64,000 nucleotides of DNA from the NCBI RefSeq assembly GCF_032854445.1, contig NC_088295.1:76970028-77034027 (forward strand), read 5' to 3'. This stretch comes from Liolophura sinensis (taxonomy: Eukaryota; Mollusca; Polyplacophora; Chitonida; Chitonidae). Positions 8,401 through 14,400 of the stretch are shown here, in pieces (the stretch's first letter is position 1; each line of letters opens with the position of its first letter). Made by a program: the position numbers and the translations under genes. The notes below the pieces were generated by a model that made no database searches, was not told the DNA's origin, and saw only the letters and a program-made list of their open reading frames with translations.

Positions 8401-11400
8401 GAGTTCTTGTTGCACATTCATCTGTATCTGAAACACACGTTGATAAATAAATAAAGAGTGCCTCGTCGTTGTCAGCCAGGAGGGTTTGTCAATGCGCCTA
8501 ATAGGATGAATTAAAAAAACAACATACACATATATGCTTTATGGCAACTTCACCCAAGGTAACTTGAATTTTGCAGACTCTTCTGCAAACAGATGCTATC
8601 CTTCATTTACAGCCAAATGAGAGGATGATTCCAAATATATTATGCCAACTGCTCCTGAGCTTTTTTAATCGACGTAAGAGCGTTTTTTCTCCATCAACAC
8701 TGAAAATTCATTTACCTTTGCAGCTGAATGTTCCTTGATCAAAGTTCCATTGGCCGTCAGTATATCCAGGCCGACATCGACAGGAAAACGTGCTGGTCGT
8801 GGGATTTATCGTCACACATTCTGAGCCGTCAAGACAAGCCGTTGACGAACAAACTGTCGGCAGATACAATAACATCACACTGCCTGTCGACGCATAAAAC
8901 GTTGTGAACAGGTTAAAATCACGACAAAATATAAGGCAGGTTAATTCAAAAACTGTAAACATGTAGCAACACCAGGAAACGATATACGACAGTCTAAATC
9001 AAAAACAGCGGACAGGTTAAAATAACAACAAAAGCCGTGGGACAACCCCGCAATAAGATGTACCACAGGACAAAGATCGAATTGTTTAACAATTGTTAAA
9101 ATAATGATAAATAATTGGTTACCAATCAAAGGTAGGTAGATAAACCTTGCCACACAATAAACGACAGGCTAATGAACAAACTGTGGGCACGAGAACATTG
9201 CCACAGGATATATCACAGGATAATGACCAAACTGTGGGCATGAGAACATTACCACGGAATCTACGAAAGGATAATGAACAAACTCTGGGCACGAGAACAT
9301 TGCCACAAAATATATGACAGGCTAATGAACAAACTGTGGGCACAAGAACATTGCCAGAAGATGCATGACAGGTTAAATAAACAAACTGTGGGCAGGAGAA
9401 CATTGCTACAGAATATATGACAGGCTAATGAAAAAACTGTGGGCAGGAGAACACTACCACGGAATCTACGACAGGATAATGAACAAACTGTGGGCATGAG
9501 AACATGGCTACAGGATATATGACAGGATAATGAACAAACTCTGGGCACGAGAACATTGCCACGGAATATACCACAGGATAATGACCAAACTGTGGGCAAG
9601 AGAACATTGCCAAGGAATATATAACAGGATAATGAAAAAACTGTGGGCACGAGAACATTGTCACACAATAAACGACAGGCTAATGAACAAACTGTGGGCA
9701 CAAGAACATTGTCACAAGATACATAACAGGTTAAATGAACAAACTGTGGGCAGGAGAACATTGCTACAGAATATATGACAGGCTAATGAAAAAACTGTGG
9801 GCAGGAGAACACTACCACGGAATCTACGACAGGATAATGAACAAACTGTGGACACGAGAACATGGCTACAGGATATATGACAGGATAATGAACAAACTCT
9901 GGGCACGAGAACATTGTCACACAATAAACGACAGGCTAATGAACAAACTGTGGGCACAAGAACATTGTCACAAGATACATGACAGGTTAAATGAACAAAC
10001 TGTGGGCAGGAGAACATTGCTACAGGATATATGACAGGCTAATGAAAAAACTATGGACAAAAGAACATTACGACGGAATATACGACAGGATAATGAACAA
10101 ACTGTGGGCACGAGAACATTGCTACAGGATATATGACAGGAAAATAAACAAGCTGTGGGCAAGAGAACATTGCCACGGAATATACCACAGGATAATGAAA
10201 AAACTGTGGGCACGAGAACATTGCCACACGATAAACGACAGGCTAATGAACAAACTGTGGGCAGTAGAACATTACCACGGAATCTACGAAAGGATAATGA
10301 ACAAACTGTGGGCACAAGAACATTGCCACGGAATATACCACAGGATAATGAACAAACTGTGGTCAGGAAAACATTGCCACACCATAAACGACAGGCTAAT
10401 GAACAAACTGTGGGCACGAGAACATTGCCGCAGGATATATCACAGGGTAATGAACAAACTGTGGGTACGACAACATTGCCAAAGAATCTACGAAAGGATA
10501 ATGACCAAACTCTGGGCACGAGAACATTGCCACAAGGTATATGATAGGCTAATGAACAAACTGAGGGCACAAGAACATTGCCACAAGATACATGACAGGC
10601 TAATGAACGAACTGTGGGCAGGAGAACATTGCTACAGGATATATCACAGGCTAATGAACAAACTGTGGGCAGGAGAACATTACCACGGAATCTACGACAG
10701 GATAATGAACAAACTGTGGACACGAGAACATGGCTACAGGATATACGACAGGATAATGAACAAACTCTGGGCACGAGAACATTGCCACGGAATATACCAC
10801 AGAAAAATAAACAAACTGTGGGCAAGAGAACATTGCCACAGGATAATGAAAAAACTGTGGGCAGGGCAGCATTGTCACACAATAAACGACAGGGAAATGA
10901 ACAAACTGTGGGCAGAAGAACATTGCTGCAGGATATATCACGGGATAATGAACAAACTGTGGTCAGGAAAACATTGCCACACGATAAACAACAGGCTAAT
11001 GAACAAACTGTGGGCACGAAAACATTGCCACAGGATATATCACAGGATAATGGACAAACTGTGGGCACGAGAACATTACTACGGAATCTACGAAAGGATA
11101 ATGAACAAACTGTGGGTACGAGAACATTGTCACAAGGTATATGATAGGCTAATAAACAAACTGTGAGCAGAAGAACATTGCCACAAGATACATGACAGGT
11201 TAAATGAACAAACTGTGGGCAGGAGAACATTGCTACAGGATATACGACAGGATAATGAACAAGCTGTGGACACGAGAACATTGCCACGGAATATACCACA
11301 GAAAAATAAACAAGCTGTGGACACGAGAACATTGCCACGAAATATACCACAGGATAATGAAAAAACTGTGGGCAGGAAAACATTGTCACACGATAAACGA

Positions 11401-14400
11401 CAGGCAAATGAACAAACTGTGGGCAGAAGAACATTGCTACAGGATATATCACGGGATAATAAACAAACTGTGGTCAGGAAAACATTGCCACACGATAAAC
11501 AACAGGCTAATGAACAAACTGTGGGCACGAGAACATTGCCACAGGATATATCACAGGATAATGACCAAACTGTGGGCACGAGAACATTACCAAAGGATAT
11601 ATTATAGGATAATAAACAAACTGTGGGTATGAGAACATTACCACGGAATCTACGACAGGATAATGAACAAACTGTGTGCACGAGAACATTGCCACAAGGT
11701 ATATGACAGGCTAATGAACAAACTGAGGGCACAAGAACATTGCCACAAGATACATGACAGGCTAATGAACAAACTGTGGGCAGGAGAACATTGCTACAGG
11801 ATATATCACAGGCTAATGAACAAACTGTGGGCACGAGAACATTGCCACAGGATATATCACAGGATAATGACCAAACTGTGGGCATGAGAACATTACCACG
11901 GAATCTACGAAAGGATAATGAACAAACTGTGGACACGAGAACATGGCTACAGGATATACGACAGGATAATAAACAAACTGTGGGCAGGAGAACATTGCCA
12001 CGGAATATACCACAGGAAAATAAACAAACTGTGGGCAGGAGAACATTGCCACGAAATATACCACAGGATAATGAACAAACTGTGGGCAAGAAAACATTGT
12101 CACACGATAAACGACAGGCTAATGAACAAACTGTGGGCACGAGAACATTGCCACAGGTTATATCACAGGCTAATGAACAAACTGTGGGCACGAGAACATT
12201 GCCACGGAATATACCACAGGATAATGAACAAACTGTGAGCACGAGAACATTGCCACAAGGTATATGATAGGCTAATGAACAAACTGTGGGCACAAGAACA
12301 TTGCCACAAGATACATGACAGGTTAAATGAACAAACTCTGGGCACGAGAACATTGCTACAGGATATATGACAGGCTAATGAACAAACGGTGGGCAGGAGA
12401 ACATTACCACGGAATATACGACAGGATAATGAACAAACTGTGGGCACGAGAACATTGCCACGGAATATACCACAGGATAATGAACAAACTGTGATCAGGA
12501 AAACATTGCCACACGATAAACGACAGTCTAATGAACAAACTGTGGGCAGGAAAACATTGCCACACGATAAACGACAGGCTAATGAACAAGCTGTGGGCAC
12601 GAGAACATGGCCACAAAAAAATACCACACGTTAATGAACAAACTGTGGACACGAGAACATTGCCACAAGATATATGACAGGCTAATGAACAAACTGTGGG
12701 CACGAGAACATTGCCACGGAATATACCACAGGATAATGAACAATCTGTGGGCACGAGAACATTGTCACAAGATATATGACAGGCTAATGAACAAATTGTG
12801 GGCAGGAGAACATCGCCACAAGATAAATGACAGACTAATGAACAAACTGTGTGCACGAGAACATTGCCACGGAATATTCGACAGGATAATGAGCAAACTG
12901 TGGGCAGGAGAACATTGTCACACGATATACAACAGAGTAATGAACAACCTGTGGACAACATTGCGTTGCCTTATGATATAATATAGGCTAATGAACAGGG
13001 TGTGGACAACATTGTGTTGCTCTGTGATATAATATAGGCTAATGAACAGCCTGTGGACAACATTGTGTTGCCCTATGATATAATATAGGCTAATGAACAG
13101 GGTGTGGACAACATTGCGTTGCCCTATAATATAATATAGGCTAATGAACAGCCTGTGGACAACATTGTGTTGCCTTATGATATAATATAGGCTAATGAAC
13201 AGGGTGTGGACAACATTGCGTTGCCCTATGATATAATATAGGCTAATGAACAGCCTGTGGACAACATTGTGTTGCCCTATGATATAATATAGGCTAATGA
13301 ACAGGGTGTGGACAACATTGCGTTGCCCTATGATATAATATAGGCTAATGAACAGCCTGTGGACAACATTGTGTTGCCCTATGATATAATATAGGCTAAT
13401 GAACAGCCTGTGGACAACATTGTATTGCCCTATGATATAATATGGGCTAATGAACAACCTGAAGACAACATTGCGTTGCCCTATGATATAATATAGGCTA
13501 ATGAACAGCCTGTGGACAACATTGTGTTGCCCTTTGATATAATATAGGCTAATGAACAACCTGAGGACAACATTGCGTTGCCCTATAATATAAAATCGGC
13601 GAATGAACAGCCTGTGGACAACAACGCGTTGCCCTATGATACAATATAGGCTAATGAACAGCCTGTGGACAACATTGCGTTGCCCTATGACATAATATAG
13701 GCTAATGAACAGCCTGTGGACAACATTGTGATGCTCTGTGATATAATATAGGCTAATGAACAGCCTGTGGACAACATTGCGTTGCCCTATGACATAATAT
13801 AGGCTAATGAACAGCCTGTGGACAACATTGCGTTGCCCTATGATATAATATAGGCTAATGAACAGCCTGTGGACAACATTGTGATGCTCTATGATACAGG
13901 ATAGGCTAATGAACAGTCTTTGGACAACATTGCGTTGCCCTGTGATATAATATAGGCTAATGAACAGGGTGTGGACAACATTGCGTTGCCCTATGATATA
14001 ATATATGCTAATGAACAAATGGCTAACATACAGATATTGATGAGCAAAGTATAGACAGGTATACATACATGTATAAAACCGGTTGGAGGACAAGTTATAC
14101 ATACATACTGACAAACGCAATGAATGATTGCATGAGCGGCCAAATTATTTAATGACATACCTTTAAACGCTGTTTTTGTTTTGTTTCATGTGTGGTTTTA
14201 AGCAAGTTTCGGCAATATTTCGGCTTTAACCAAACAGTTACAAAATAGCACAGATCGGAAAGGACGTTGCGTTTTTGTCCGATGTTTGTCCAAATTATAT
14301 ACTGACACCGAGTGGCCTATCCCATAATATAATTAGAATACTGTGCAAAGAAGTAAGAACTTGAAGTCTAATGTATAGCCCAGGTAGGGACTGAACTGTG

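Follow-up and report, generated by a model that had tools for sequence, protein, structure and literature searches.

The chiton Liolophura sinensis carries an array of about 102 units of 51 bp beside exon E1 of a gene for epidermal growth factor (EGF)-like domains, within a 64,000-nucleotide stretch of contig NC_088295.1 (C1:76970028-77034027; this whole stretch is referred to as the window, and positions given without a contig name are positions in it). The array is probably a minisatellite without coding function that lies in the predicted intron 1 of this gene, began as a duplication of the E1 splice junction and represents an old and giant mirage. A mirage is a minisatellite built from a duplicated intron/exon boundary, described in amphioxus for Adh3, the globins BflGb6 and BflGb9, TnC and PGBD5 in the accessible text of PMC3087553 and PMC3902484. 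The array ends in a decayed edge, its unit matches the E1 junction at 15/16 positions, no coding constraint is found along it, and the same genome contains other arrays of the mirage type. An earlier note on this DNA had described the array and missed both the likeness of its unit to the 3´ splice junction of E1 and the fact that the decayed array reaches this exon.

Architecture and turnover of the array

Tandem Repeats Finder (TRF) reports two abutting 51-bp arrays, at 9143-12954 (74.9 copies, 81%) and 12938-14017 (21.2 copies, 90%). With the minus strand mapped onto the unit, the whole array resolves into 82 type A and 20 complete type B units. The type A units comprise 74 core units (9149-12916, minus), which carry 2 to 10 differences each except for one unit of 39 bp, a single unit joining A to B (12917-12967, minus; 13 differences from A and 12 from B), and about seven decayed units (8847-9148, minus), which carry 16 to 29 differences each and reach E1. 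The type B array occupies 12968-14017 (minus), with unit starts from 13982 to 13013. The two types are homologous, type B having lost 5 bases and gained 5. The earlier note had counted about 96 units of exactly 51 bp from 8935 to 14030. The 51-bp array is indeed present there, but the core A units measure 51 bp in 67 cases, 52 bp in six and 39 bp in one, the unit is of two types, and the seven or so decayed units carry the array on to the exon at 8853.

The core A units share a mean likeness of 83%, which rises to 96% between each unit and its nearest relative. A higher-order periodicity peaks at lags 12 and 24, and runs of up to nine units recur at lag 24. Type B is more uniform (lag identities of 0.90-0.93) and shows some 102-bp alternation, with an identity of 0.934 at lag 2 versus 0.904 at lag 1. 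The last seven, exon-side units differ from the type A unit at 21.6 positions on average versus 5.7 for the 74 core units; the units at this edge have escaped homogenisation. As far as the search reaches, the array is a single locus: 23/23 matches listed for an A probe and 14/14 listed for a B probe across the 609 Mb genome, both counts being lower bounds, fall inside it.

The unit folded as RNA gives z scores of -1.5 (A) and -3.0 (B) in the minus sense and -2.3 (A) and -1.8 (B) in the plus sense, and the stretch 8800-8949 (minus) gives -0.85. RNA families and tRNAs were searched for and none was found.

Likeness of the unit to the E1 splice junction

The authentic 3´ splice junction of E1 (8847-8862, minus) reads TGCCGACAG|TTTGTTC and is identical at 15/16 positions to TGCCCACAG|TTTGTTC of unit A, a match composed of 9 intronic and 7 exonic bases. 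Among all 16-mers on both strands of the window that start outside 8935-14040, the E1 acceptor is the only one within one mismatch of the cyclic unit. The decayed units, which TRF does not report, align in register between the array and E1. Flank and junction together score 98 against a maximum of 74 for shuffles, and their score is reached by 0/300 dinucleotide shuffles and 0/300 shuffled units in each of three scoring schemes. The flank alone gives 0/300 dinucleotide shuffles per scheme and 1, 0 and 0 of 300 shuffled units. At the opposite end, the interior flank (14031-14343) shows no significant likeness to the unit, its score being reached by 146, 26 and 92 of 300 shuffles. The array adjoins E1 and does so only via the decayed units, from 9148 to 8847.

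Splice-junction arrays elsewhere in the genome

Arrays of the same kind, which are clearer cases than the one in the window, occur at other EGF exons of this genome (C8 and C10 denote other contigs, and L numbers the fetched stretches). One of them is a 41-bp array at C8:54160525-54162384 (L035:8303-10000 and L036:1-161), which contains 45 acceptors, the last of which belongs to the real EGF exon DIDECRDLSS; each acceptor has a polypyrimidine tract, CAG and an exon start resembling DIDEC. Further along C8, the exon DVNECEEYR is preceded, at about 54171503-54171850, by two incomplete copies of 91-102 bp. At C1:81265508-81265887, four copies of 90 bp are present, the last of which is the real exon SEKSLCDSVYHRC. 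A genome-wide scan for paired CAG|D[IV][DN]EC acceptors, which covered CAG acceptors at a spacing of 25 to 55 bp only, returned 55 matches at three loci and none for the reversed pattern. The C8 array accounts for 39 of these, C1:94364752-94366617 for 15 and C1:94349361 for a single pair. The second locus (L059, L067) is a 43-bp acceptor array with 26 matching acceptors within L067; the third (L058), about 15 kb from it, is a two-copy case of 45 bp. Both end in an EGF-like exon (DIDECAVDNGG), its cysteine pattern being judged by eye. On the donor side, two similar places on C10 (L030:2503-2853 and L031:2437-2787) each hold 7.5 copies of a 47-bp unit, which repeat the EGF exon donor CAGAG|GTAAGA into the intron as imperfect copies. 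In the five other acceptor-side arrays the adjoining exon retains a complete start (DxDEC, or SEKSLC), which makes the junction the apparent source there.

Comparison with known repeat arrays

In BflGb6 of amphioxus, the 3´ end of an intron and the 5´ part of the exon are repeated six or three times; the boundary units of the globin mirages escape homogenisation, and reverse transcription PCR suggests regular splicing (PMC3087553, accessible text). The mirages of TnC and PGBD5 were added by PMC3902484. The array in the window resembles those of amphioxus, as far as the accessible text describes them, in being a minisatellite-like, head-to-tail repeat of a boundary, with edge units that are not homogenised; donor and acceptor sides are both represented in the chiton genome as well. 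Unlike BflGb6, with six and three units of 150-160 bp, the array in the window has about 102 units of 51 bp; it also differs from the amphioxus mirages in its mollusc host and in the far stronger decay of its edge units. In the accessible text of these reports mirages have been an amphioxus matter, and splice-junction arrays of 2 to about 100 copies are found here in a protostome. Their presence suggests that the route by which introns lengthen, acceptors become more numerous and exon starts perhaps move is not peculiar to amphioxus. In the C8 intron, the 45 acceptors, nearly identical and of ordinary strength, would make a natural experiment on how an acceptor is chosen by the splicing machinery.

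The minisatellite of the human 6-16 gene supplies several splice donors and, as in the chiton, places a unit with a splice signal beside a real exon. It differs from the chiton array in lying on the donor side, with a short unit and few copies. The Helentron-borne arrays of oyster are likewise short, satellite-like and from a mollusc, but they are dispersed by an element according to the accessible text of PMC7492417, whereas the chiton array is found at one locus. We found no mollusc mirage in the literature by a full-text search that was weak and is poor evidence of absence. The accessible main text of the Liolophura japonica genome paper contains neither 'tandem repeat' nor 'satellite' (PMC11068029).

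Origin of the array

The favoured reading implies the following course. The array would have started as a short tandem duplication of the 3´ end of the intron together with the first bases of E1, and would have grown by unequal exchange or slippage of multi-unit blocks. The units nearest to the exon would then have dropped out of homogenisation and decayed, leaving the working splice junction as the last copy. Upstream decoy acceptors would be ignored by exon definition, in that only the last acceptor is followed by an open stretch of exon length and then a donor. The array may be tolerated by the gene because exon definition would pick the last acceptor and because most acceptors of the array are weak. 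We infer that seeding occurred from the junction, that copying proceeded in this direction, that E1 is spliced normally and that the array is neutral.

Acceptors were scored with a weight matrix built from 45 EGF_CA acceptors of the same genome, in which real sites have a median of 8.0 and a 5th percentile of 3.1. E1 scores 4.3, and most decoys in the window are weaker than this true site, the type A units having a median of 2.1 (an AG lies near the column in 73/82 units). Acceptors as good as real sites are found in other arrays, namely the 45 of the C8 array (about 8.3) and the four of the 90-bp array on C1 (11.1).

Several observations weigh against an origin from the E1 junction. The weakness of the type A acceptors is itself one of them, and good AG sites are about as dense in the array (8.7 per kb) as in the rest of the intron (8.2 per kb). 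At 8993, among the decayed units, there is an AG that is stronger than that of E1 (5.7 versus 4.3) and not in its phase. The match at the junction covers few bases and stops 7 bases into the exon, the further exon bases giving no clear alignment, and the score of the junction alone is reached in the three schemes by 0, 7 and 7 of 300 shuffles (7 under lenient gap costs) and by 0, 4 and 1 of 300 shuffled units. Exon 1 is a prediction, and E1 falls below the Pfam cut-off (PF00008, E 0.0052, 17.5 bits, curated cut-off 21.5). Given the shortness of the match and the predicted status of E1, it is not beyond doubt that the unit contains the authentic intron/exon boundary of the host gene.

Exon boundaries also do not appear to be favoured. 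A copy within 1.4 kb is found at 7/66 EGF_CA junctions versus 145/1320 random sites at the same loci; the sample consists of junctions beginning DxDEC and distinct by sequence, counts one exon twice (its left context is cut) and excludes E1 of the window and the SEKSLC exon. Five of the seven junctions with a copy reflect similar neighbouring exons at L026, and two are mirages, both in the C8 gene. In 20 hit-ranked stretches, copies are found at 0/28 junctions. The fetched stretches, 201 kb in all, contain 48 arrays with a period of at least 15, of which 5 overlap an EGF boundary versus 4.76 expected by random placement (P 0.53); the window array is absent from these five because TRF stops at 9143. 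Because copies and arrays are no commoner at boundaries than chance gives in either count, arrays of this kind resemble the part of a minisatellite-rich intron landscape that happens to span boundaries, not the outcome of a process targeted to splice sites.

The unit and the junction could also be related in the opposite direction. The array would then have arisen within the intron and spread to the exon, E1 taking its acceptor and first cysteine codon from the last unit so that the start of the exon moved. E1 begins V-C and lacks the DxDEC start of E2, E4, E5 and E6, the homology to the unit ends 7 bases into E1, and three candidate acceptors (8952, 8883 and 8853) are in the phase of E1, all of which would suit such a capture. 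The retention of a full start by the exon beside each of the five other acceptor-side arrays argues against it, and we regard it as unlikely. Paralogs give no help with the ancestral start of E1, the nearest matches being too distant to use.

Origination of the array from a junction, as we favour it, can also be set against chance. A plain intronic minisatellite of arbitrary origin, resembling the E1 acceptor by coincidence, would agree with how common minisatellites are in the fetched stretches and with the lack of preference for boundaries. However, the likeness lies exactly at the acceptor, is unique in the window and is linked to the array by decayed units, which makes coincidence very unlikely. 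We also hold it to be very improbable that splice-junction minisatellites still actively enlarge introns in the chiton, in stages ranging from the two-copy case to the old 5-kb array, and that alternative use of the three in-phase acceptors in addition puts array-derived segments, short and in frame, ahead of the first EGF domain.

Open reading frames of the array

The earlier note drew attention to frames of 494, 407 and 400 codons (minus) and 391 codons (plus), which are close to the 501, 414, 408 and 391 codons that we measured from stop to stop. It attributed them to a unit free of stops in at least four frames, which is true of consensus A (5/6 frames) and fails for B (1/6). When the order of the units in the A core is shuffled, the longest minus open reading frame (ORF) of 501 codons is matched by the mean (500 ± 113), and the longest plus ORF of 391 codons compares with 304 ± 74. 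Independent shuffling of columns lowers the mean longest ORF to 290 ± 70 (minus) and 219 ± 53 (plus), as expected if variants within a unit are linked.

Translation of the units in the sense of the host gene, as Cys-bearing repeats of 17 residues, would be consistent with minus frame 0, which is in register with E1, has 0 stops in the 74 core units when insertions are ignored, and is the frame in which unit B is open. The lack of stops does not reach significance (null 8 ± 10 stop cells, P 0.146). The comparison of synonymous with other changes between units that the note had proposed was made in six frames, and in this openest frame 12/64 distinct variants are synonymous versus 18.9 ± 3.5 expected, fewer than by chance. 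Some synonymous excess is seen in minus frame 1 (22 versus 15.6 expected; P 0.027 without correction for six frames), which has a stop in 37/74 units. In type A, codon position 1 has the highest column entropy and position 3 the lowest. One-base insertions are present in 7 core units, and relative to E1 the unit starts occupy each of the three phases (39, 30 and 13 of 82). Translation as repeats is accordingly highly improbable; the peptides that the note had envisaged would be broken by the insertions. From the shuffles of unit order, the synonymous counts and the insertions and phase shifts, we conclude that the open frames are a side effect of the unit and that the array is non-coding, in agreement with the default reading of the note.

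Unlike a repeat-coding exon, the array keeps no single frame, since insertions shift the phase, and its variation is not concentrated at synonymous sites. Pfam matches in the array frames are taken as composition noise, since none attains its curated cut-off and they have no relation to each other. A conserved core around the acceptor is not claimed, since a 28-column block gives P 0.037 and other widths give 0.13 to 0.64.

The core of a mobile element, of the type that bears satellite-like arrays in oyster and so is reported from a mollusc (PMC7492417, accessible text), is disfavoured and scarcely credible, the A and B probes having no match elsewhere among the matches listed (lower bounds).

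The host gene and other features of the window

The host gene lies on the minus strand. Its predicted exon 1 (16822-16900) provides an ATG, a signal peptide and the donor CAGACAG|GTAAGT in phase 1, and the predicted intron 1 (8854-16821; 7,968 nt) bears the array at its 3´ end, which takes up about two thirds of its length. The placement of the array inside an intron of an EGF gene, as proposed by the earlier note, holds if this predicted exon is real. Within 14030-25232 of the minus strand, it is the only signal-peptide candidate whose phase-1 donor scores at least 6 of 7; the same criterion applied to the whole window gives 5 candidates on the minus strand and 1 on the plus strand, and 2 and 0, respectively, at the strictest donor score. 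Pfam found nothing upstream of the array on the minus strand of 14020-23980. One of these signal-peptide candidates, at 8962, which would start in the decayed units and read into E1, is a conceivable alternative first exon, and the array would then lie upstream of the gene and not in an intron.

E1 (8716-8853; 138 nt, phase 1-1) is EGF-like and is followed by the EGF exon E2 (8290-8427), the EGF-like exon E3 (7642-7791), which is below the Pfam cut-off, and the EGF_CA exons E4 (7271-7408), E5 (4911-5048) and E6 (4252-4386). The probable last coding exon (2459-3236) has a basic start, is Ser-rich, resembles a cytoplasmic tail by eye and ends with a stop at 2459; it has no Pfam match. The intron between E4 and E5 contains a perfect 313-bp TA microsatellite (6285-6597).

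Further minisatellites of the window are located at 37857-38766 (41 bp unit) and 42554-43061 (29 bp unit, holding CAGGT); around the latter, Pfam gave no domain on either strand of 40500-45399. Upstream of the EGF gene lies a single-exon gene for a rhodopsin-type receptor (25233-26411, minus; PF00001, E 4.3e-20). An exon with a bZIP_Maf domain, which we take to be of the CNC/NRF type, is located at 56492-57307 (minus).

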